Source: a virus. Taken from it: a DNA stretch of 20,407 nucleotides. Positions 615 to 19,483 of the stretch are shown here, in pieces; the stretch's first letter is position 1; each line of letters opens with the position of its first letter. The stretch spans positions 1-20,407 of the IMG/VR virus record IMGVR_UViG_3300030329_001304; one strand, given 5' to 3'. The notes under the pieces are model-generated. The model saw nothing but the letters and a program-made list of their open reading frames with translations. It ran no database searches and had not been told where the DNA came from. The translations under genes and the position numbers were made by a program.

Positions 615-1622
615 ATGGCGCGCGATGATTACGGAGCCATTTCTGTAATCTCTGATGAAGAACGAGAGATTTTAGGAATAGGTGGCTCTAAAAAACCTGA
701 TGATGAAGAAGGACTATTTGAAACCTTAGGTAAAGCAGCTGACAAAGCAGGCGATACTAAAGTAGGACAAAAGATAGGTTCTATACTCACGGTTTTAATT
801 CTCGCGTTTTTTGGTAGTGGTACTGGTGATATAGGTATGCTACAAGATATTTTTGGAGGAGAAGAAGAGGAACCCATGTTAAAGGGTGGATGCATGGACC
901 CAACTGCTATAAATTACAAACCGGATGCAGATTTTGATAACGGCAGTTGTACTTTTCCTCCTCCTGTAAAATATGGTTGTATGGATTCATCGGCTACTAA
1001 TTACGATAATCAAGCTACCCATGATAATGGTAGATGTCAATACTTAAATCAGAACGGTACAGGTAATGAAACTCAAACTAATGAAACAGTTTATGGATGT
1101 ATGGACATTGAAGCTAACAATTACAATGATAGAGCCACAGAAGATGATGGTTCTTGTGACTATGAAAACGAAGAGAACCACTGTAACCATACACAGTTAG
1201 TTCTATGGAATGGGCTACAGTATGGTAACTACTCGAGGGAAGATAATACTTTAGATATATATGTCGATATGGACACTAATTGTGATGACCCTGACGAGCC
1301 TCTACCTGTGTTGGTGTATTATGACGTGGGTCACTTTTTCCTTGACGAAGAGGGAAACGAAACGACCTTAATATATGACACCTTCGTATATGGAGAGACA
1401 TTCTTTAATGTGTCAGGTTGGGTTGAAGATACTCATTGGTTAAACTCAGGAGCAGAACCATATGAAGAAACGTTCGATAATTATACGGACGGCGTTTATT
1501 ATTTTTATGCAAGTTTCTTAGCTGATTGGAATAATACGGGAGAATATGAATGGGTTACAAGCATTACAAATTACCCGTACTACAGCGATGAAGATGAAGC
1601 ATTTAGACTGGAGGAGGAATGA
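615..1622 (+). CDS. Sequon-rich single-pass surface protein with three GCMD repeats
   Basis: 335 residues, family not recognised as a whole. Residues 1-53 are charged and contain no asparagine. A hydrophobic segment at about 54-75 (IGSILTVLILAFFG) looks like one membrane helix without a classical signal peptide. An acidic linker follows, then three repeats at about 92-113, 121-142 and 161-182 of the form GCMDxxAxNY...(D/G)GxC, a motif common in secreted proteins of marine Bacteroidota and archaea. I count ten N-x-S/T sequons, all after residue 91, and none before. Inference: N-terminus inside, C-terminus outside and probably N-glycosylated. The C-terminal half (about 190-335) is acidic and aromatic-rich, perhaps beta. 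It is the first gene after a leaderless-type promoter and overlaps the next gene by ATGA. It could be a virion surface spike or a protein placed in the host envelope. Confidence 0.7.
   Translation: MARDDYGAISVISDEEREILGIGGSKKPDDEEGLFETLGKAADKAGDTKVGQKIGSILTVLILAFFGSGTGDIGMLQDIFGGEEEEPMLKGGCMDPTAINYKPDADFDNGSCTFPPPVKYGCMDSSATNYDNQATHDNGRCQYLNQNGTGNETQTNETVYGCMDIEANNYNDRATEDDGSCDYENEENHCNHTQLVLWNGLQYGNYSREDNTLDIYVDMDTNCDDPDEPLPVLVYYDVGHFFLDEEGNETTLIYDTFVYGETFFNVSGWVEDTHWLNSGAEPYEETFDNYTDGVYYFYASFLADWNNTGEYEWVTSITNYPYYSDEDEAFRLEEE
888..1163 (+). repeat. Three in-frame GCMD...NY...GSC protein repeats
   Basis: Copies start near 888, 975 and 1095. Each encodes G-C-M-D, an A-x-N-Y core and a closing (S/R)-C followed by an aromatic residue; the two cysteines per copy could form a disulphide, and the Asp/Asn spacing resembles calcium-binding loops. 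Spacers differ (29 and 40 residues between copies), and the second spacer carries three of the N-glycosylation sequons. Confidence 0.75.
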
Positions 1623-5251: not shown

Positions 5252-6556
5252 ATGTCGTTTATAGATAGAGTTAGACGTACTTTCGCCAGAGTTGGTGGAA
5301 ATCCGTCATATAAAAAAGACGACCCTAGAAGTTACGGGGAAGGAGTTATTAAACGTCTTAAAATCAATAGAGGTTTTAGTCTTAACAAAGATAAGAACTA
5401 TGAACCACATATAGGTCAAAACAGAACTTATATGAACGTTTATTTATCAGACCCTATTGTTAGAAGTTTAATTGACTTACCGTGCTTATACGCTGTTAAA
5501 GATAATTTTGATATTGTTACAACAGACGATGGAATTAGGGAAGAGTTAGAAGAAATGTTCCGCGATATAAATATTGAACATATTTTATATGGTTGGTTAA
5601 GAAATGCTAGAATTTTTGGTACAGGTTATTTAGAATGGACTGGAGACAATTTAATTTTAAGGTCTAGTCAAAACATGTACGTAAAGAGGAATGAGCACGG
5701 TCAGATAGAATACTATTATCAAAAAGTAGGAGACGATGATGAGAATATCAGATTCGAGGAAAACGAAATAATAGAATTGAAAAATAATCAATTCGATGAT
5801 TATGCATATGGTTTATCTGACATACACCCAATATTATATTTAGTTGATTTAAAGGATTATGCAGAAAGAGATATAGGAGCAGCATTAAATAAATATGCAT
5901 CTAGTAGATTTGATGTTAGTGCTGGTTTACCTGATATGCCTTATGGTCCTGATAAGATTAATGAAATTGTCGACGCATTTAATACTCTAGCACCCGGTGA
6001 AGATATAATTCACGGGAACGACATAGTAATCAAAGAACTACAAGGTACTCAACGTGCTTTTGAGTATGGTAAATATACAGATGATATATTAGATAAAATA
6101 CATGTAGCTTTGAAAACACCACGCACTATGTGGACAGACCCAGAAAAAGCACGACCTATTTTTGAACCATACGTAAGATACTTACAAACTATGGTAGAGG
6201 GAGCACTTAATTCCCAGCTTATGCCTCAATTAGAAAAGGGAGAAGCAAAATTTAAGTTTAGGCAAATTAACGTTGAAGACGCATTCACTAAAGCCAAGAC
6301 TGATATGATTTATCTATCAGAAGGTGTATTATCACCCGGCGAAGTTAGAGAGGAAAGAGGACTTGACCCTGAAGGAGTTGCAGAATTAGATATGGAAACT
6401 TCTGAAGATATAAAGGCTTCACCAATAAAACGAGAACAGAGTGATAAGAATGCTAACATATCTGGAGGAAAGAACCAAGATAAAAGGGAAGAATCCTCTA
6501 GAGCACAAAATAGGGGCAACAAGCCCTCCGCAAACGCAACAGGAGATAGAGCATGA
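5252..6556 (+). CDS. Portal protein
   Basis: 434 residues, typical in length for HK97/SPP1-type portals. Recognised from its pattern as well as position: early YLSDPIVRSLIDLPCLYAV, then ARIFGTGYLEW (about 118-128), the YGLSDIHPILYLVDLKDYAE stretch (about 188-207) followed by ALNKYASSRF, and a C-terminal clip/crown region with LSPGEVREERGLDP. The dodecameric portal fills one head vertex, is the DNA channel and the docking site for terminase, and nucleates head assembly. The last 40 or so residues are Lys/Asn/Ser/Glu-rich and likely disordered. The gene starts without SD right after the class B promoter and overlaps the protease gene by ATGA (6553-6556). Confidence 0.9.
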   Translation: MSFIDRVRRTFARVGGNPSYKKDDPRSYGEGVIKRLKINRGFSLNKDKNYEPHIGQNRTYMNVYLSDPIVRSLIDLPCLYAVKDNFDIVTTDDGIREELEEMFRDINIEHILYGWLRNARIFGTGYLEWTGDNLILRSSQNMYVKRNEHGQIEYYYQKVGDDDENIRFEENEIIELKNNQFDDYAYGLSDIHPILYLVDLKDYAERDIGAALNKYASSRFDVSAGLPDMPYGPDKINEIVDAFNTLAPGEDIIHGNDIVIKELQGTQRAFEYGKYTDDILDKIHVALKTPRTMWTDPEKARPIFEPYVRYLQTMVEGALNSQLMPQLEKGEAKFKFRQINVEDAFTKAKTDMIYLSEGVLSPGEVREERGLDPEGVAELDMETSEDIKASPIKREQSDKNANISGGKNQDKREESSRAQNRGNKPSANATGDRA

Positions 6557-7809
6557 CATTTGAAAAATGTATGATACAAACTAAATCAAACCTGAAGAAG
6601 AGGGGTTTTGAGAACCCTGAAGAGATTGCAGCTGGCATGTGTAGCATGTGGGCGCAAGAGAATGGCGTAGAGCGGGAATTTGCAGAGGGCAAATCTACTG
6701 AACCTGTTCGTAGGTCATTCGCTTTAGAAGTGGCTGAGGGTGAAGATATGACATTTTCCAGCGATGAGGGAATCGACTCTGTATCATTCCCAGTAATCGC
6801 TATTACCTCCGGACCTCATGAATATGAGGTTGATGGAGAGCAACATAAAGTTTATATTGAGGGAGGACAGTTAAAAGATAATTTACATCAATTTACTGAA
6901 CTACCGATTTATATTGACCATCAAAGAACAGAAGAGGACTTAATCGGCATGGCTGCTAATCCCGAACTGTTTGAGATGGATAATGGAAAGACCGCTATTA
7001 AGATGCTAGCAACAGTATCTAATAAATATGGCCGTGGTCAAGAAGTAATGGAGAAAGTTAAGGAAGGAGACATGACACATGTTAGTATCGATTGGTTTTC
7101 AAACGATATTGATGTTATGGGTGACAATTACGCCACCAATATTCGTCCTACAGAGGTAAGTTTCATTGACAATGAAAAGATGGACCCAGTCTGTAAAGAA
7201 TGTACTATAGAAACGAAATGTGATTCACAAGAACCGGAAGACGACCACGACTGTGGTTGTGGTGGCCAAGAAGGAAATTGTGGATGTGAGTCAGAACAAA
7301 CAGAGGTAAATATGTCAGAAGAGACAAAAGAAACAACTGTAAAATCCGACGCAGAAAGCATTGTCGAACGCGAGTTCGCTTCCCTACGCTCACAACTTGA
7401 AGCAGCAGAAGCATCTAAAAAGGAAATCGAATCTGAATTCAAAGCAGCTATGAAAGAATTAGAAACTTTCAAGAAAGCAGAAGAAGAAAGATTAGAGAAA
7501 GAAGCAGAAGCAAGAAAAGTTGAAACAGTAGAAGCAATTATATCCAAAGAAATCTTATTCGGTTCAATCGAAGAAGATAAAAAGGATGCTCGTGTCGAAG
7601 AACTTTCCGCTTGGGATGAATCCAGATTGACTGGATTTAGCGATGCTCTAGCAGCAATGCCAGAGCCAAGCAACGACGTCGAACGTTCTTTCGGAAAAGG
7701 TAAATCAGCTGATGAAGGTGAAGTACCAGAAACCAAAAGAGAGTTCGGTATGAAAGTAGAGGACGGTAAAATTAGAATAAACCGTGACTACTACCTAAAA
7801 GGTGATTAA
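6553..7809 (+). CDS. Prohead protease (S78-type) fused to scaffold-like domain
   Basis: 418 residues with SD AGGAG at 6541-6545. Residues 4-34 (FEKCMIQTKSN...AAGMCSMW) match the helical N-terminus often found on these proteins. The protease spans about 75-212: H123 in IYIDHQ and S178 in THVSID are the expected catalytic pair, with EVSFIDN (201-207) supplying a candidate acidic third residue. A seven-cysteine acidic linker (214-245) follows, then a coiled coil (about 275-325) and tail, as in scaffolding domains. The family cleaves scaffold and itself during head maturation. An R[ES]F[AG] motif recurs at R41, R54, R273, R378 and R396, possibly marking cleavage sites. An internal start at 7312 could make free scaffold. 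Portal, this gene, decoration and capsid genes form one operon; the capsid protein shows no obvious N-terminal scaffold of its own. Confidence 0.88.
   Translation: MTFEKCMIQTKSNLKKRGFENPEEIAAGMCSMWAQENGVEREFAEGKSTEPVRRSFALEVAEGEDMTFSSDEGIDSVSFPVIAITSGPHEYEVDGEQHKVYIEGGQLKDNLHQFTELPIYIDHQRTEEDLIGMAANPELFEMDNGKTAIKMLATVSNKYGRGQEVMEKVKEGDMTHVSIDWFSNDIDVMGDNYATNIRPTEVSFIDNEKMDPVCKECTIETKCDSQEPEDDHDCGCGGQEGNCGCESEQTEVNMSEETKETTVKSDAESIVEREFASLRSQLEAAEASKKEIESEFKAAMKELETFKKAEEERLEKEAEARKVETVEAIISKEILFGSIEEDKKDARVEELSAWDESRLTGFSDALAAMPEPSNDVERSFGKGKSADEGEVPETKREFGMKVEDGKIRINRDYYLKGD
7312..7809 (+). CDS. Possible free scaffold from an internal start
   Basis: ATG 7312 is codon 254 of the protease gene, preceded by GAGGT at 7303-7307 in the sequence cagaggtaaat. 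The product (165 residues, starting MSEETKETTVK) would contain only the coiled coil and tail, without the protease or cysteine linker. Lambda C/Nu3 makes free scaffold in the same nested way. Seen: an in-frame ATG with an SD exactly at the domain boundary. Inferred: that it is used. Confidence 0.45.
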   Translation: MSEETKETTVKSDAESIVEREFASLRSQLEAAEASKKEIESEFKAAMKELETFKKAEEERLEKEAEARKVETVEAIISKEILFGSIEEDKKDARVEELSAWDESRLTGFSDALAAMPEPSNDVERSFGKGKSADEGEVPETKREFGMKVEDGKIRINRDYYLKGD

Positions 7810-8239: not shown

Positions 8240-9364
8240 ATGGTTCAACCCGGTCCAACTAGTGGTCTTTTGACCAGTCTGAACTCAGGTTCATACGCCA
8301 ACACTGGCGGAACAGGAGAGCGAGTACTCATTGATTATAAAGATGCAATTATCGACTACAAGGTCACAGACCTTCCAGTCATGCAATTCTTTGCAGACCC
8401 AATGACTACAGATACAGGCGGTAATATTGATATTACTTTCGCAAAACCATCTATGACGATGGAACAAATAGAAGAAGGAACAACTCCTCAATACCAACAC
8501 ACAAAACTACGCTCCGAGAGAGTAGCAGTTAAAGAGTGGGGTATTGCAGTAGGTGTAACCCGAAGAATGATTGAAGATTCAAGATTCAACGAAGTAGAAA
8601 TGGCTCTTAACGAAGCACGTCGCGCTGTCGACAGACACTTGACCGAACACGTTACAAATGTCATTTTCGGTATTGGTAGCACTACACTAGGAACTGGTGT
8701 AGACGTAGGTGCAGGTTTTACTGACATCTTAGCTGCCGGTGCAGCTTCTACTGAAGCAAACATCTCTGATTTCTCAAAGGCACCTAATGGAGCTTTCTTA
8801 GGAACAGCCGCAACTTTTGCAGGCAGATTGGATGAATATGCTAATCAATCATTAGCTACCTTACAAGCATGCAGTTCTTATACAGCAGCTTCATCAAACG
8901 GTACAAGCTCTTTCGCTTTAGTCGATGTTGCAGCAGCAATTAGTAGGATGAGCAAGCTTGGTTACAATGCAACTCACTTATTCATTTCACCTTCACACTA
9001 TGAAAATATGTTGAAGATGGCTGATTTTGTAAGTGCATTCACCAACGCACAAGGAACTAATGGAAGTATCCAAGGTGGAGGTAACTTTATGCCTACAACT
9101 GGAGACAACCCATTCAGCTCCATGCTAGCAACAGGTGGTTTAGTTGGTTCATTATATGGATTAGCAGTAATTGTGAATCCATGGGTTCCAGCAGGAAGAT
9201 TTGGTGTATTCGACCTTTCAGTTAAGCCAATGGCTTATGTAGAAAGACGCGGACTCACTGTAGAAGAAGCCAATCCCGGATTCGGAATTGTCGGTTCCTA
9301 CATGTCTATGAGATACGGATTGAAGGTCGTTAGACCAGAAGCCGGTCAAATCGTCATCAGTTAA
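8240..9364 (+). CDS. Major capsid protein, HK97 fold
   Basis: 374 residues with a strong SD (AGGAG at 8228-8232, 7-base spacer). After a Gly/Ser-rich N-arm (about 1-27) come features typical of HK97-fold coat proteins: an E-loop-like segment around PMTTDTGGNIDITFAKPS (about 54-71), RSERVAVKEWGIAVGVTRRM then the spine helix SRFNEVEMALNEARRAVDRHL (about 113-133), an A-domain with HLFISPSHYENMLKMADFVS, and the final strand region VEANPGFGIVGSYMSMRYGL. There is no long N-terminal delta domain, in keeping with a separate scaffold in the upstream protease gene. It is the last gene of the class B operon; an 80-base leader follows before the fibre genes. Confidence 0.9.
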   Translation: MVQPGPTSGLLTSLNSGSYANTGGTGERVLIDYKDAIIDYKVTDLPVMQFFADPMTTDTGGNIDITFAKPSMTMEQIEEGTTPQYQHTKLRSERVAVKEWGIAVGVTRRMIEDSRFNEVEMALNEARRAVDRHLTEHVTNVIFGIGSTTLGTGVDVGAGFTDILAAGAASTEANISDFSKAPNGAFLGTAATFAGRLDEYANQSLATLQACSSYTAASSNGTSSFALVDVAAAISRMSKLGYNATHLFISPSHYENMLKMADFVSAFTNAQGTNGSIQGGGNFMPTTGDNPFSSMLATGGLVGSLYGLAVIVNPWVPAGRFGVFDLSVKPMAYVERRGLTVEEANPGFGIVGSYMSMRYGLKVVRPEAGQIVIS

Positions 9365-12400: not shown

Positions 12401-14346
12401 TGCGTCTTAATAAAGCTGGATATTTAGGTATAGGTACAACTAATCCTTTAGCACCATTACACGTGTATAAAGCTGATGGATGGAGTACTGGTCAAAACTG
12501 GATGCAATGGATACAAAATGCAGAAGCAACTGACGATTCTAACTATGGATTAAGAATATCTGCTGGTTCTACTGGAAATGACACAGCTTTCTTTGTTCAA
12601 GACCACGATGCTTCTAATGATTACTTTGTTATTCGTGGCGACGGTGATGTCGGTATAGGCACAACATCACCCGCCAGAAAGTTAGAAGTTAATTATGGTT
12701 CAAGTTCTGGTTATATGAGAATCGTTGGTCAAAGTAAAAGTTTGCTTTTAGGCCAAGATAGTGTAGGAGCAGCTATTTATCAAGAAGATAATGCTCCAAT
12801 GTATTTTGCTACCAATAATGCTGAACGTATGCGTATTTTAGCTGATGGTAAAGTAGGTATAGGCACAACTGGACCTGATGGTAAGTTAGAGATTATTGGT
12901 TCAAATGGTACTGTTAGCCAAACTCCTGAGAGTGATGCAGAAGAATTAGTAATAAGAAATAATCATAGAGCAGGTATATCTATACTATCTAGTGAGTCAT
13001 CTGGTAGGGGTGGATATATAGTATTTGGTGGTGCAACAGATAGTAATGCTGCTAACATACATCACGATTTTGATAGTAAAGAATTTTCTTTCCAAGGACA
13101 AAATCCATCTATGGAATTACGTTTTGCTAGTGCTAATAACGTAGAAGCTATGCGTATAGATACATCACAGAATGTAGGTATAGGCACAGATTCACCAGCC
13201 TATAAATTAGATGTAGTTGGAACAACCCAATTATCAGGTAATACAGTTATAACAGGTACACTCGCAACGACAGGGGTAGCTACATTAGGAAATAATTCTG
13301 TAACTAATACACAGAGTGCAGGAGATAATTCAACAAAAATAGCTACAACAGAATTTGTAACTGCGGCTTTGGCAGCAGGAGGATATGGTAATGTTACTAA
13401 AGTAGGAACCCCTGCAAACAACCAAATAGGTGTATGGACTGGTGACGGTACTATTGAAGGTGATACTAACTTTACTTATGACGGAACTGATTTAACCATA
13501 GGTAACTCTGGTAAACTAAAAGTAGTTAATGCTTCTAGTAATTATTGGGCTATATATAATCAATCTAATGGTAAGATGAGAATAGACCAAGGCACTACAC
13601 AAAGAGTACTTGCCTCATCTGGAGAGTTTCAATTTGCTAATGATATTATAATTGATAATGATTTAATAATTAATACTTCTTCACAACTTGCTAGTGGTAG
13701 AGCTACTGTATTAGACACTGCTAACCCTCAATTGACACTTGCTTATGACGGTTCTAATTATGTAACACACCAATACACTAGCGCAGGTAATTATAAAATT
13801 ATTACAGCAGGAGGTAATAGATACATAGATATAGAATCTAACTATTTAAACATAGGAACTGGACAAGATGTAGATATTAGACTTCAATTTAATGCTAATA
13901 CTAGTGTAGGTTATCAATACTGGATGGAAGATGAAGGTAGGTTTGACTTTTTAAGTGGTTCTACTAGTATGGCTTCATTAGACACTACTGGCCTAACTGT
14001 AACAGGCACAGTAAGCGCTACAGCGAAAAGCTTTAATATAGCACATCCCCTATATAAAGATAAGAGACTAGTGCATGGGTCTTTAGAAGGCCCTGAGCAT
14101 GGTATATATATCAGAGGCACTATAGAGGCAATAGAAGGGTGCGAAATAGAGCTTCCTGAGTACTGGAGTGCTATGTGTGAGGACTATACAGTGCAACTGA
14201 CGCCTCATGGGCCTTACACAGTCTTTATTAGAGAAAAGCAAAAGGATAAAGTTATGGTAGGTTGTTCAAGTAAAAATTACAAATTTGATTATTATATTGT
14301 TGGTTCAAGGACTGACGAAACTTTAGAGGTGGTACAGGATGCCTAG
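9445..14346 (+). CDS. Giant fibre protein 1 (1633 aa)
   Basis: Low-complexity Ser/Thr/Gly/Asn-rich beta protein of the marine-virus fibre type. Motifs in order: repeated fibre modules with NST(K/R)(I/V)ATT(A/E)(F/Y)V at about 450-459, 715-725 and 1295-1305 (Phage_fiber_2-like); two ENTN...IRFY modules (from about 329 and 785); five (V/L)GIGT(T/D)xP repeats at residues 870, 993, 1068, 1136 and 1243, most preceded by a MR-containing strand; and a C-terminal domain of about 107 residues (1527-1633) beginning AKSFNIAHPL and containing HGSLEGPEHGIYIRGT, known at the ends of fibre proteins from marine phages. Role: host-binding fibre or appendage, probably trimeric. No SD precedes ATG 9445. It overlaps the next gene by 8 bases, with AGAGGTGG as that gene's SD. 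It follows the capsid gene directly, which is unusual for a tail fibre, so a head fibre is possible. Confidence 0.8.
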   Translation: MARYTKVLKSLAHNAVGSKRIEAVSTSGSSISSLTYVPGSYHYVATQSNGTNITGNSQNLFGNQIKLSGSSAGGVQLYEATSNGSNYLQLNAPAAITTNFVLTLPNGPPSTSGYALVSTDAGVMSWSAFSGGNTYITGLAYAPSTQKITATLSDSSTVVQSPSLEEFGDSISIKGTNEGHVDLYEKAVNGSAYVSLRAPVDMGTNPSYIISLPVADGTTGQVMARGSGGQLTWVNNDDANYYVTGGTYDSSNDEIDFSGTTGFPAFSVDTSDFAKGSIAGASTYVPYFTAASALTGTNTFRWDNANGFLTLSNATASTVTHTGHPLLVLENTNADAFPAGIKLYKNSASSAANDLIGLIRFYANDNAGTPAEEEYARIEGEVESSTAGAEIGKLSFYTVNNGTRARRLWMSGATTTINSNTEITGTLSTTGVATLGNNSVTNTQSAGNDSTRIATTAFVSTAVDNAVASSSQYYNTFYNSSQGLVGSARLQTDASNNIILSGASNIAKTAADFQSTLGVSGALTVSGNSSLKGTLGVASTTTLSGATTIEAATDIIGNLTIKDGGYATPMWKMTATQGAGKVAMIDSGSNVSTPQFFPILQLHNEAQDVDPGGGGAVVYADMPTIHFRKLGPRNAVNSANTTAGFRFLASGLSTAAATTTQKQFLVYTYQPDESTGTPSEIAKLDSTGIFTATTFAGELDGTISSTTTATTQSASNNSTKVATTAYVDAAVSAGGGGTIGGSIADNQVAFGATTADSIEGSDNFTYDGTDLSLTSATSNKPVFTLENTNSDDAPAFLDFKKNVADGQQAASDTLGQIRFYGKDSANNLDSFVDMYVQSPTITSTSENGALFMRTRAAGTMTQTLTLNAGNVGIGTTAPARKLHVYSGSNGYAARFEDGIELDGTNVQLLGYGQGNLWLMGNSGNPKLTLGYSHNWDFAVSLRYLRGATTGSSYVGDGEFRLGQTDKNNANYDHGITSFYVSGSEAMRLNKAGYLGIGTTNPLAPLHVYKADGWSTGQNWMQWIQNAEATDDSNYGLRISAGSTGNDTAFFVQDHDASNDYFVIRGDGDVGIGTTSPARKLEVNYGSSSGYMRIVGQSKSLLLGQDSVGAAIYQEDNAPMYFATNNAERMRILADGKVGIGTTGPDGKLEIIGSNGTVSQTPESDAEELVIRNNHRAGISILSSESSGRGGYIVFGGATDSNAANIHHDFDSKEFSFQGQNPSMELRFASANNVEAMRIDTSQNVGIGTDSPAYKLDVVGTTQLSGNTVITGTLATTGVATLGNNSVTNTQSAGDNSTKIATTEFVTAALAAGGYGNVTKVGTPANNQIGVWTGDGTIEGDTNFTYDGTDLTIGNSGKLKVVNASSNYWAIYNQSNGKMRIDQGTTQRVLASSGEFQFANDIIIDNDLIINTSSQLASGRATVLDTANPQLTLAYDGSNYVTHQYTSAGNYKIITAGGNRYIDIESNYLNIGTGQDVDIRLQFNANTSVGYQYWMEDEGRFDFLSGSTSMASLDTTGLTVTGTVSATAKSFNIAHPLYKDKRLVHGSLEGPEHGIYIRGTIEAIEGCEIELPEYWSAMCEDYTVQLTPHGPYTVFIREKQKDKVMVGCSSKNYKFDYYIVGSRTDETLEVVQDA
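10714..10821 (+). repeat. Fibre module repeat, copy 1
   Basis: 108 bases encoding residues 424-459 (TGTLSTTGVATLGNNS...ATTAFV). Pairs with 13252-13359 without any indel: I count 31 of 36 residues identical but about 28 of 108 bases different, mostly synonymous, so this is an old, maintained duplication. Confidence 0.85.
12052..13200 (+). repeat. Five GIGTT-type fibre repeats
   Basis: Copies of (V/L)-G-I-G-T-(T/D)-x-P begin at 12052, 12421, 12646, 12850 and 13171. The DNA word GGTATAGGCACA is conserved in four copies (GGTATAGGTACA in the one at 12421). Spacing is uneven (204 to 369 bases), so inserted beta modules of different size sit between them. A related GLGTTSP copy occurs in fibre protein 2 near 14800. 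Confidence 0.85.
13252..13359 (+). repeat. Fibre module repeat, copy 2
   Basis: Second copy of the 108-base module at 10714-10821, encoding residues 1270-1305 (TGTLATTGVATLGNNS...ATTEFV). Both copies are followed further down by other fibre material, so the duplication covers at least this core. Confidence 0.85.
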
Positions 14347-17300
14347 TGCAACTGATGTATACATAACACCTGCCAGTAGAAAGATTGAATGGTATCAGAG
14401 TAGTGCGGTAAAAGCAGAGATAAGTGGTTCTGGTGGAGATTTATATGTTTCAGGTTCTGGAGATTTACAATTAGACGCAGAAGGTAATAATATTAATTTA
14501 CGCTCTGCTGGAGTTAAATGGGGTGCAATGAATAATAACAACGCTTACTGGGATTTTGATGGTAATGCAGGTAGCTCTTATCTTAGATTTATTCCGTGGA
14601 ATAGTGGTGCCGGTACAACTGCATATACTTACTGGGGAGATACAACACACGACCAAAATATTATTATACAGGGTGCAGGTGGCGGCGGTAACAACGAGAC
14701 AACACTAGCAAACAACTTTTTTAAACAGAAAGACGGCGCTGGTAATACAGACACCTATATTCAAGCAGGTGGAGATTCTTATATTCTTAATCAGTTCGGA
14801 TTAGGTACAACCTCACCTACTAAACAGTTACACGTGCAAGGAGCTATAGCAGTATCTGGAGCAGAGTCTGGTGGCAACTCAGGTTATGGTAATTCTTTTT
14901 ATCAATACAATCAGTCAGGCGCTCAAACTTTGCGTTTATATTCAGATTCTAGAGGTGTTTCAGGTGGTAAAAGACAACACATATACGCAACAGCAAGATT
15001 AAATATAGAATCTACTGAGCATATGGGAATAGGTCCATCTACATCAGGAGAATATTTACATTTATATTCCGCAGCTACAGCCCATATGTATTTAGATGCT
15101 GGTGGTGATTTTCAATTTAGAGATGCAGATGATAGTAGTGCAGTTAGAATGAGGTTGGCTTCCGCAGATGGTGCTTTGGGAGTTGCTGGATTAATAACAG
15201 CATCTGGTGGTGCAACTATAGCTTCCTCTCAAAATTTTACAATGGGAGGTCAGGCAACTAGTGATATTTTAATTAGTACAGACGCTTCGTCCGTTTCAGA
15301 CACTGTATTAGTTACGGCAGGATATGTAAATGCTCACGCTGGAGGAGGAGGAGGAGGTACGATTGCTGGTTCTCTTTCCGACAATTATATTCCTATCGGT
15401 AGTGCTGCTAATACAGTATCTAACTTCGTTTTAGGTTTAACAGAGGATGATTCTATTTATATAGGGACTGACCCTTCTGCTACAACAAACTCAGCTGGTA
15501 ACAACACAAGTTTAGGTATAAACGCTTTAGCTGCTATAACTACGGCTGATGATAATACTGCTATAGGTTATAGGTCATTGTACACACTCAATACTGGAAT
15601 TAATAACGTAGCTGTAGGAAGTAATGCTGGAAGTGGTGTAACCACAGGAGGACAAAACACAGTTATTGGTAAGGAAGCAGGAGTGAGTGTTGGTACACAT
15701 AGTCACAATACTTATGTTGGTTATAATGCTGCTATTTATCATTCAGGAGATAATAACGTAGGTTTAGGAAGTAATGCTCTACGAACTGGTTCTAATGATT
15801 ACAATGTAGCTGTAGGAATGTCTGCTATGACTAAAGTGTCCGGTGGAGCTGGAGGAGTAGCTGTAGGTTTCCAATCTGGGTACCATCCAACTGGGAATTA
15901 CAATACTTGGTTAGGATACAACGCTGGATTTGGTAGTAGTGCAGCTTCGTCTCAAGCTGCTTATACTAATGTAGGTATAGGCAAAGAAGCTCTAATGTCT
16001 ATTACAAATGGATATGATAATACAGCTGTGGGTGTATTGGCAGGTGCAACCCTTACAACAGGATATTACAATACTTATATAGGTAAGGCAGCTGGGTCAG
16101 GTGCTACTACTGCGGCTCATAGTAATGTAGGTATAGGATTATCTGCATTATCTTCTGCTCATGGAGCAGGTAACGTGGCTATTGGTAGAGGTGCACTCAG
16201 CAATACTACAGATGCTAATCAGGTTGCAGTAGGATATAGTGCTTTAGAATCTAATACAGCTGGAGAGAAAAATACTGCTGTAGGTTATAATGCACTTACA
16301 GCAAACACTACTGGTAATTATAATACTGCTATGGGACACCAAGCACTTGATGCTAATGTTCATGGATATTATAATGTAGCTATTGGATATCAAGCTTTGA
16401 CTGCTAGTAATGCTGCTGATACTACTGGTGGTAATACTGCTGTAGGTGGATATATGGCTTTAGGGTCTGTCACTCAAGGTATCCGTAATAATGCTTTTGG
16501 TCATTCTGCTGGACACACTTTAACTACAGGTAATTATAATGATTATATGGGGTATTCAGCTGGATATGAAAATGTTCATGGAGATTATAATGTAGGAATA
16601 GGAAGGTCAGCTTTAGAAAAGAATGCGCCGGGAGACGGTGCAGGTAAAAATGTAGGAGTAGGTGCTTTTGCAGGTAGAGGAGGAGCGACACATGCTATGA
16701 CAGGTAGTGTGTTTATTGGTTATGCTTCTGGATATTATACTACTGGTAATGCTAATGTAGCAGTAGGGTATGGTGCATTGGAAGGAGGTTCTTCTACTTA
16801 TTCAGCTACTAAAAATGTAGCTATTGGTTATCAAGCTTTGAAGAGTGCTACTACTGCTGAGAATATTGTTGCTATAGGTTATTTAGCTGGTGATGCTCAG
16901 ACTACTGATGACGAAGGTTCTATTTACATCGGAAGTTCGGCTGGAGGTTCAGATTATGGTACTAACAGAAATATATTTATTGGTTTTGATGCTGGTAATA
17001 AAAATACAACAGGGGCTAACAATTTAGCTATAGGGCATAAAGCTTTAGAAGATATGGTTAGTGGTATACATAACGTAGCCATTGGTCGTGAAGCAGGAAA
17101 AGAATTAACAGGTAATCAAAATGTTGCCTTAGGTACTTTTGCTCTGCAAGACCGTGTAGCAGGATATTATAATACAGTTGTTGGTGACCAAGCTATGAGA
17201 GATAGTACTGCTGGAGATAAAAACGTTATATTAGGAACTTCAGCTATGGGTAATGATACTGTGGGAACTGGCGGTGGTGAAAACGTTGTAGCAGGTTTTG

Positions 17301-19483
17301 CTGCACTTAGAAAAAACACAGGTCAATATAATGTAGTTGTAGGCTCAGAGGCTGCTACTGCTGCTACTGCACTAGGTAATTCAGTTGTCATAGGTAGACA
17401 GGCTATGGGAGGTGCAGCAGCTACAGGTGATGAGAACGTAGCAATAGGTTATTTATCAATGCTTGATAATACTTCAGGTCTTCGTAACACAGCTATAGGA
17501 GCTTATGCTGCAACAGGTAGCACAACTGGACAAGACAATGTAGCTGTAGGTCATTCAGCCTTACAAGAAAATCAAGAAGGTGACGATATGGTTGCTATTG
17601 GTAGATATGCAGCGTATAATACAAACCCCACAGCAGGTACTGGAGACTCAGTAGCAATAGGAAGCTCAGCAGCTTTTACTAATACAACAGGTGTGCAGAA
17701 TGTAGTAATAGGTAGAAGAGCTGCTTATAGTGGTACTAGTGCTAATAATCTTGTAGTAATAGGTAGAGAAGCTGGAGAAAAAATAACAACTGGTTCAAGT
17801 AATGTTGCGATTGGTGGACGAGCTGGTTACAACATCACTAAAGGAGCTGAAAATGTAATGATTGGTCAAAATGCTGGATACAATTATGCTGGTACTACCT
17901 CTGGAGTTTATGGTGCTTTTGGGGTTTTCGTAGGACATGCTGCTGGTTATGCTGTAACGGGTGGACATTCTTATGGTTCTGTGATGGCTATAGGTCATCA
18001 ACCTATGTATAATGCTACTGGAGCTAAAAAGACAATAGCTATTGGTCAATCTGCGGTGGTTAGTGGTACTAATGTTGAAGAAACTGTAGCTTTAGGTAAT
18101 GGAGCAGGTGCATATGCTAATGCAACAGGTAGTGTATATGTAGGTAACAAAGCTGGTTTTAGGTCTTCTGGTAATTATAATGTAGTTGTAGGGTATCAAG
18201 CTTTATCAGGTGCTTCGTCGGGGACAGGTTTTGGAACAGCACATAACAACGTAGCAATAGGATATCAATCTATGCTTAATGTAACTAGTGGTGGAGAAAA
18301 CGTAACTATTGGAGACCAAGCTGGTTATGGTATAACTACCGCAGACTATTGTGTTGCTGTAGGTTCAGACGCATTACGCAATGTGACGACTGGTTTTGGT
18401 AACATAGGTATAGGTCGGTACGCTGGAGCTTCTTTAGCAACAGACCAATATACTATAGCTATAGGAAGTAGTGCTGCACAAGATGCTACAACTTCAGAAT
18501 CAGTTATAATAGGACAAAACGCAGGATATAGTTTGACAGGAGACCAAAATATAGCTATAGGTAAAAGTTCACTATTTACTGCTACAAGTGCTGGCAGTAA
18601 TATATCTATAGGTGTTAATGCTGGTAACGCACATACTACTGGGGACGATAATGTATTTATAGGAACTAGCGCAGGTAAAGCAAGCACTACCGCAGCTGGT
18701 AACATAGCCATAGGTAAAGATGCTATGAAAATTGGTGCTCAAACTTCTAGCGACGGTGGTCAAAATACTGTAGTAGGATATGCAGGATATGTCGACGGAA
18801 CTGGTCTACGTAACGTTGTTTTAGGTTATCGTGCAGCATACACAGCTACATCAGCAAACTCGAATGTTAATATAGGATATGAAGCAGGTCAAAAGAATAC
18901 CACAGGTGATGGTAATATTTTTATCGGTAATAAAGCAGGACCATCTTCTACATCCACTGCTTCTAATGAACTCTATATACACAACGACGAGGGAACTCCA
19001 CTTATCAAAGGTGACTTTAGTTCACCATCTTTAACAGTTAACGGTGATTTAGGAGTTACAGGTTCTTTATCAGTCACTGGTTCGACACTAGCAGTTCAAA
19101 AATCAATAAAGAATGACATTGCCGGTAATCACACAATATCAGATAGTTACAGTCATTATATGGCTACAGCTGATAATCAAGGTACTGCTACTTGTACAAT
19201 AACTTGTCCAGCTAGTCCTTCAATAGGTGATGAATATTTCATAGTAGCACAATGTATATATGCCTCTGCTATGCCTAGTAATGCTTTAGTTCAAATAACT
19301 CCTAATACAGGTCAAACAATAAATCAAGCAGTCAATGCTGGTAGTAACATTGCTCTACATCAAGTAAGTTCTGGTACTGGAGCTGGTGGACAACCACTTG
19401 TAAGTTATAAAACAGCTCATTTAATTTGTGTTGATACTGGTCAATGGGTATTGACTGTAAGTGACGTAGGACCTACATCTTAG
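14339..19483 (+). CDS. Giant fibre protein 2 with AIG-repeat solenoid (1714 aa)
   Basis: ATG 14339 overlaps the end of fibre 1 and has the SD AGAGGTGG about 5 bases upstream. Residues 1-340 are fibre-like beta modules, including GLGTTSPTKQLHVQG (about 154-168) and LYSAATAHMYLDAGGDFQFR. A Gly-rich hinge (AHAGGGGGGTIAGS, about 333-346) leads to a long solenoid at about 388-1534 with some 66 copies of N(T/V)-(A/V)-(I/V)-G-xx-A-(L/G), mean period 17-18 residues. This resembles the left-handed beta-roll repeat of YadA/Hep_Hag adhesin heads. The end (about 1535-1714) has ELYIHNDEGTPLIKGDF, LTVNGDLGVTGSLSVTG and a compact beta domain with a few cysteines (CTITCP). Probably a trimeric adhesion fibre working with fibre 1; which part attaches to the particle is unknown. 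No breaks in the frame despite the repeats. Confidence 0.8.
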   Translation: MPSATDVYITPASRKIEWYQSSAVKAEISGSGGDLYVSGSGDLQLDAEGNNINLRSAGVKWGAMNNNNAYWDFDGNAGSSYLRFIPWNSGAGTTAYTYWGDTTHDQNIIIQGAGGGGNNETTLANNFFKQKDGAGNTDTYIQAGGDSYILNQFGLGTTSPTKQLHVQGAIAVSGAESGGNSGYGNSFYQYNQSGAQTLRLYSDSRGVSGGKRQHIYATARLNIESTEHMGIGPSTSGEYLHLYSAATAHMYLDAGGDFQFRDADDSSAVRMRLASADGALGVAGLITASGGATIASSQNFTMGGQATSDILISTDASSVSDTVLVTAGYVNAHAGGGGGGTIAGSLSDNYIPIGSAANTVSNFVLGLTEDDSIYIGTDPSATTNSAGNNTSLGINALAAITTADDNTAIGYRSLYTLNTGINNVAVGSNAGSGVTTGGQNTVIGKEAGVSVGTHSHNTYVGYNAAIYHSGDNNVGLGSNALRTGSNDYNVAVGMSAMTKVSGGAGGVAVGFQSGYHPTGNYNTWLGYNAGFGSSAASSQAAYTNVGIGKEALMSITNGYDNTAVGVLAGATLTTGYYNTYIGKAAGSGATTAAHSNVGIGLSALSSAHGAGNVAIGRGALSNTTDANQVAVGYSALESNTAGEKNTAVGYNALTANTTGNYNTAMGHQALDANVHGYYNVAIGYQALTASNAADTTGGNTAVGGYMALGSVTQGIRNNAFGHSAGHTLTTGNYNDYMGYSAGYENVHGDYNVGIGRSALEKNAPGDGAGKNVGVGAFAGRGGATHAMTGSVFIGYASGYYTTGNANVAVGYGALEGGSSTYSATKNVAIGYQALKSATTAENIVAIGYLAGDAQTTDDEGSIYIGSSAGGSDYGTNRNIFIGFDAGNKNTTGANNLAIGHKALEDMVSGIHNVAIGREAGKELTGNQNVALGTFALQDRVAGYYNTVVGDQAMRDSTAGDKNVILGTSAMGNDTVGTGGGENVVAGFAALRKNTGQYNVVVGSEAATAATALGNSVVIGRQAMGGAAATGDENVAIGYLSMLDNTSGLRNTAIGAYAATGSTTGQDNVAVGHSALQENQEGDDMVAIGRYAAYNTNPTAGTGDSVAIGSSAAFTNTTGVQNVVIGRRAAYSGTSANNLVVIGREAGEKITTGSSNVAIGGRAGYNITKGAENVMIGQNAGYNYAGTTSGVYGAFGVFVGHAAGYAVTGGHSYGSVMAIGHQPMYNATGAKKTIAIGQSAVVSGTNVEETVALGNGAGAYANATGSVYVGNKAGFRSSGNYNVVVGYQALSGASSGTGFGTAHNNVAIGYQSMLNVTSGGENVTIGDQAGYGITTADYCVAVGSDALRNVTTGFGNIGIGRYAGASLATDQYTIAIGSSAAQDATTSESVIIGQNAGYSLTGDQNIAIGKSSLFTATSAGSNISIGVNAGNAHTTGDDNVFIGTSAGKASTTAAGNIAIGKDAMKIGAQTSSDGGQNTVVGYAGYVDGTGLRNVVLGYRAAYTATSANSNVNIGYEAGQKNTTGDGNIFIGNKAGPSSTSTASNELYIHNDEGTPLIKGDFSSPSLTVNGDLGVTGSLSVTGSTLAVQKSIKNDIAGNHTISDSYSHYMATADNQGTATCTITCPASPSIGDEYFIVAQCIYASAMPSNALVQITPNTGQTINQAVNAGSNIALHQVSSGTGAGGQPLVSYKTAHLICVDTGQWVLTVSDVGPTS
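15500..18940 (+). repeat. About 66 AIG solenoid repeats in fibre protein 2
   Basis: In-frame protein repeat with consensus N-[TV]-[AV]-[IV]-G-x-x-A-[LGAM] followed by a variable 7-20-residue loop often containing TTG, NTTG or TAG. Counted by eye: 66. Codons differ between copies, so nucleotide identity is low and the array is not a simple tandem DNA repeat. Confidence 0.85.

Follow-up and report, generated by a model that had tools for sequence, protein, structure and literature searches.

To our knowledge, prohead-protease specificity has been worked out in only a handful of cultured viruses. The proteases of T4 and the giant phages recognize short spaced motifs (L/I-x-E and A-x-E), cut the scaffold repeatedly and trim N-termini, and in SPN3US the removal of propeptides from virion proteins includes the portal (PMC9026906, PMC10052503). 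T4 gp21 itself has such a motif, LIE-9, close to its N-terminus (PMC9026906). The herpesvirus protease cuts behind its own domain, at the R site, and 25 residues from the scaffold end, at the M site, thereby releasing the shell (PMC12474303).

The protease-scaffold protein analysed here probably belongs to a prohead protease maturation system, which is a known kind, with a putative new specificity and a new layout. It resembles T4 gp21 and the giant-phage enzymes, phiKZ gp175 and SPN3US gp245, in having a short spaced motif, multiple candidate cuts in the scaffold and a predicted removal of a virion propeptide. The predicted protease domain also has the same fold as T4 gp21 (PDB 5JBL). Whereas T4 gp21 and the giant-phage enzymes cut after Glu, the residues shared here are R-x-F-[AG]. 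No Glu-ended L/I-x-E or A-x-E motif of the T4 type is shared by the sites, and I-V-E is found only before site 3. In contrast to these phages, the protease here is part of a fusion with the scaffold, and the major capsid protein lacks a site.

Like herpesvirus UL26/UL26.5, the locus combines protease and scaffold in one chain and is predicted to contain a nested in-frame scaffold gene. The herpesvirus M site lies 25 residues from the end, whereas the candidate cuts here would leave tails of 37 and 19 residues. The counterpart of the R site would be the candidate copies located at the scaffold start and, in many relatives, directly behind the protease. Unlike UL26, the protein starts with an additional hairpin bearing two sites, has another two in its tail and uses a different motif, which recurs in the portal. 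No sequence relationship is detectable between UL26 and the window protein. Profile matches to Peptidase_S78 (PF04586) are weak but recur in relatives, whereas the window protein itself is unmatched. In the literature searched, which covered a minority of subscription papers, no description of R-x-F-[AG] as a prohead cleavage motif was found.

Gene neighbourhood and related records

The window, the whole stretch of DNA analysed, is 20,407 nucleotides long and corresponds to positions 1-20,407 of the 63,147-base record IMGVR_UViG_3300030329_001304. It sequentially encodes a terminase, a portal, the protease-scaffold protein, a small decoration-like protein, the major capsid protein and long tail-fibre-like genes. 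Three of its head genes map as follows.

5252-6556, + strand: portal protein gene, matching PF04860 and several portal PHROGs
6553-7809, + strand: protease-scaffold fusion gene, 418 residues, with a fold match to T4 gp21 and PF04586 matches in relatives
8240-9364: major capsid protein gene

The portal match to PF04860 has an E value of 5.5e-9 and falls under the curated cut-off. Elsewhere the record encodes a family B DNA polymerase, a B12-type ribonucleotide reductase and Hsp20. IMG/VR contains hundreds of relatives. Queries with the protease, capsid protein and portal retrieved no meaningful relatives among INPHARED phages, and queries with the protease and terminase retrieved none from cellular genomes.

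Two repeat proteins are encoded on either side of the head genes. A 335-residue protein (window 615-1622) contains three repeats of the form GCMDxxAxNYxxxAxxDxGSC. A 1714-residue protein (window 14339-19483) is built from many NTAIGYxAL- and GxxNVAIGxxAG-like repeats, which we take to resemble the head of a YadA-type adhesin.

Fold and domain layout of the protease-scaffold protein

The AlphaFold model computed from a diverse alignment has a mean pLDDT of 67, compared with 53 for a run on close relatives only. A helical hairpin (residues 2-37) is followed by a β-rich domain (52-206) and a long helix (267-336); a pair of short helices and a final hairpin complete the C-terminal part. The main elements map to the window as follows.

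6553-6663, + strand: N-terminal helical hairpin (residues 1-37), upstream of site 1; helices 2-17 and 22-37, pLDDT about 80
6697-7197, + strand: protease domain (approximately residues 49-215), aligned to T4 gp21, with invariant His123 and Ser178
7351-7560, + strand: long scaffold helix (residues 267-336), from AlphaFold and matches to scaffolding-protein PHROGs

In the model, the β-rich domain adopts the β-barrel fold of the T4 gp21 and herpesvirus assemblin proteases. Foldseek matches it to T4 gp21 (5JBL) with an E value of 2e-5 and a probability of 1.00. VIA-align superimposes model residues 49-213 on T4 gp21 with a Z score of 12.3 and 3.0 Å over 146 residues, followed by herpesvirus proteases with Z scores of 4-6. 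The top matches among the BFVD viral models are predicted prohead proteases. At the sequence level, PHROG matches are to head maturation protease and scaffolding protein, and PF04586 is matched by 13 of 82 relatives (best E value 8.7e-5) and not by the window protein. A sequence-profile search of solved structures found nothing. His123 and Ser178 are invariant across 82 diverse sequences and, judging from their positions, constitute a candidate catalytic pair.

A Cys-rich linker follows the protease domain (window 7192-7287). Cys214 and Cys217 are invariant in the 82 sequences, and Cys223, Cys234, Cys236, Cys243 and Cys245 are nearly so. The linker is perhaps a metal site.

Five copies of the motif

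The initial annotation reported five copies of R[ES]F[AG] in the 418-residue protein. All five are present at the exact residues named, but the copies span 6667-7749 in the DNA rather than 6669-7740.

6667-6684, + strand: site 1, VEREFA (39-44), in the linker joining the hairpin to the protease domain; found in 28 of 28 clusters, coil, pLDDT about 42
6706-6723, + strand: site 2, VRRSFA (52-57), where the protease domain begins; found in 28 of 28 clusters, overlapping predicted strand 52-59
7363-7380, + strand: site 3, VEREFA (271-276), in the opening turns of the long helix (267-336); found in 180 of 180 homologues
7678-7695, + strand: site 4, VERSFG (376-381), in the disordered tail; conserved, predicted coil
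7732-7749, + strand: site 5, TKREFG (394-399), just before the C-terminal hairpin; conserved, predicted coil

When the protein was shuffled 200,000 times, the maximum was two copies of R[ES]F[AG], reached in 46 shuffles. The five copies are encoded by different codons, and codon use also varies at the conserved Arg, Phe and Ala/Gly. The likeness is thus at the protein level, and an origin from a DNA repeat is ruled out.

All sites had been described as lying outside the folded parts. This is so for sites 1, 4 and 5, which are located in low-confidence coil predicted to be disordered. The model has site 2 overlapping the opening strand of the protease domain and places site 3 where the scaffold helix begins; the description is therefore only partly right.

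Conservation of the motif

Similarity-ranked searches did not reach beyond close relatives (72-97% identical). Every site in these keeps the Arg, the Phe and the small residue with few or no exceptions, and the middle residue and the flanks vary. A pattern scan on the protease core provided an unranked sample reaching down to 44% identity, which was enlarged with a second pattern. The resulting set comprises 180 distinct complete homologues, 44-100% identical to the window protein, that form 28 clusters at 80%.

The expectation that the motif would be kept in homologues is borne out, with all five sites present in nearly all 180 proteins. The linker between the hairpin and the protease domain contains two motifs in 178 of 180 homologues and in every cluster; the two remaining proteins look like failures of the position anchors. 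One motif is present at the scaffold start in all 180 homologues and all 28 clusters. The C-terminal tail contains two in 175 homologues and in 26 of the 28 clusters. Matches are found within the protease core in five proteins and within the coil in one (5/180 and 1/180), and no cluster representative has either.

Across the 180 homologues, the motif generalizes to [RK]-x-F-[A/G/S] with a free middle residue. Pooled across the clusters, the sites contain Arg 142 times and Lys 6 times, Phe 147 times and Tyr once, and Ala, Gly and Ser 88, 56 and 4 times, respectively. The middle position is occupied by E, T, S, M, Q, K, A, V, L or Y. On these sequences, the original R[ES]F[AG] is better written as [RK]-x-F-[AG].

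Among aligned distant relatives, the position of the motif follows the length of the linker, and the motif persists while the surrounding linker sequence changes. The start of site 1 varies between positions 41 and 50. In 69 of 180 homologues, a sixth copy directly follows the protease domain, for example, as EHREFGE or TEREFAT. Site 5 is absent from a few homologues and site 4 from one. The protease-scaffold protein at L143:3194-4330 stops early, ahead of the tail sites, and that at L080:1676-2860 lacks the segment holding site 4. These two proteins could be real variants or assembly errors.

The portal and other virion proteins

A single further R[EST]F[AG] match is found among the virion proteins of this record.

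5270-5287, + strand: N-terminal copy in the portal, VRRTFA (portal residues 7-12); R-x-F-A in 148 of 157 portals

The R-x-F-A motif is present at the N-terminus of 148 of the 157 portals, and eight of the nine exceptions carry it upstream of the called ATG. Portal starts were called at ATG only, by which these eight N-termini were missed. The N-termini, such as MSFIDRVRRTFA, MALSDYWPFKRRSFA, MPLRDYLPNLWRKREFA and MGLGDWIQRRFA, are replaced between clades and have little in common beyond the motif. Because shuffling the first residues of the portal produces the motif by chance in about 11%, the portal copy taken alone is moderate evidence; the compared portals are 68-99% identical, and the N-terminus would be a weaker witness by itself.

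Portal residues 26-29 (window 5327-5338) read RS[FY]G in most relatives and are possibly a degenerate second copy. The Arg is missing in some clades, so a second portal copy is not claimed.

A gene comparison with 11 related records detected no conserved linker copies in the capsid protein, the decoration protein, the terminase or any other virion protein. The other conserved matches sit within folded enzyme or portal cores: RIFG at residue 120 of the portal, REFG at the start of a 359-residue protein and a match in the Walker region of the terminase.

Proposed processing and alternative explanations

We propose that [RK]-x-F-[AG] is probably the sequence recognized by the family's own prohead protease, which would process both the protease-scaffold protein and the portal. 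The suggestion in the initial annotation that the copies may be cleavage sites is supported by their recurrence, their conservation around a free middle residue, their occurrence in both the protease-scaffold protein and the portal, the predicted protease fold and the internal start signal described below. As with prohead processing sites, the recurrent motif is located at domain boundaries of the protease-scaffold protein and in another head protein. Arg would occupy subsite P4, Phe P2 and Ala or Gly P1. The chain would probably be cut after the small residue, the most likely bond, with a cut after Phe as a possible alternative.

The protease would act once the procapsid is complete. Cuts at sites 1 and 2 would free it of the N-terminal hairpin. 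A cut at site 3, joined in many relatives by one at the copy that follows the protease domain, would free it of the scaffold. Cuts at sites 4 and 5 would sever the C-terminal tail, which may bind the shell, and the scaffold would then release the shell; a cut after Gly381 would leave 37 residues and one after Gly399 would leave 19. The portal N-terminus would be trimmed by about 12-18 residues, here after portal residue 12. The capsid protein, having no site, would remain uncut.

Some features argue against cleavage. Helix at site 3 and strand at site 2, as modelled, would make these two poorer substrates, and a motif bound by the protease, the portal or the capsid protein would be conserved equally well. 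One rival reading is that R-x-F-[AG] docks into a pocket of the capsid protein, the portal or the scaffold as the head assembles and is left uncut. Such docking would likewise yield a conserved motif in variable linkers with several scaffold copies and one portal copy, and herpesvirus scaffolds bind the capsid protein via their C-terminal end (PMC12474303), near the location of sites 4 and 5. However, the copies flank the protease domain and mark every domain boundary, which would be superfluous for docking to the capsid. Downstream of site 5, the tail, with a conserved Gly405 and conserved hydrophobic positions, is a better candidate for binding the shell, and the register of basic, any, aromatic and small residues appears to resemble the subsite pattern of a protease. 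We consider docking alone unlikely.

It is less likely still that each copy is kept for a folding reason of its own, as part of the first protease strand, the scaffold helix start or a basic portal N-terminus. The overlaps of site 2 with a strand and site 3 with a helix agree with such a coincidence, as does the conservation of the portal RIFG and the REFG of the 359-residue protein within folded proteins. Yet sites 1, 4 and 5 retain R, F and A/G in predicted disorder although the linkers change and shift, and other clades have an extra copy in another linker. Cleavage by a host protease or another viral protease seems the most remote of the explanations, since the protein bearing the motifs itself has a predicted prohead-protease fold and enzymes of this kind are known to process both themselves and the scaffold.

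Cleavage by the virus's own prohead protease could also be combined with binding. R-x-F-[AG] would at first link the scaffold to the portal, or both to the shell, before being destroyed by cleavage. This dual use is conceivable but rather improbable; if true, this marine virus family, an abundant one, would use a single motif on two head proteins to time assembly as well as release.

If self-processing is correct, the family would follow a maturation scheme like those of phages and herpesviruses, with portal and scaffold processed and the capsid protein spared, and the sites would provide a concrete list of peptides for ocean viral proteomes. The specificity, the probable substrates and a nested scaffold gene would thus be readable by comparative genomics of an uncultured virus family common in the ocean.

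A predicted internal start for a scaffold-only product

Between the protease domain and the scaffold helix, the gene contains a putative internal translation start.

7303-7306, + strand: Shine-Dalgarno-like GAGG, 9 nt upstream of the internal ATG; conserved in homologues
7312-7314, + strand: internal ATG (Met254), the predicted nested scaffold start; Met invariant in 82 diverse sequences

GAGG is found 9 or 12 nt ahead of the Met254 ATG in 173 of 176 homologues, compared with 254 of 2278 other internal Met codons. The residues encoded at GAGG differ among homologues (Glu-Val, Glu-Glu or Glu-Asp). The Glu codon there is GAG, which serves 30% of the Glu codons in the gene. The conserved GAGG and the invariant Met254 together predict a nested scaffold-only product containing sites 3, 4 and 5. 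This in silico evidence indicates that the internal start very probably makes a scaffold-only form in addition to the fusion protein.
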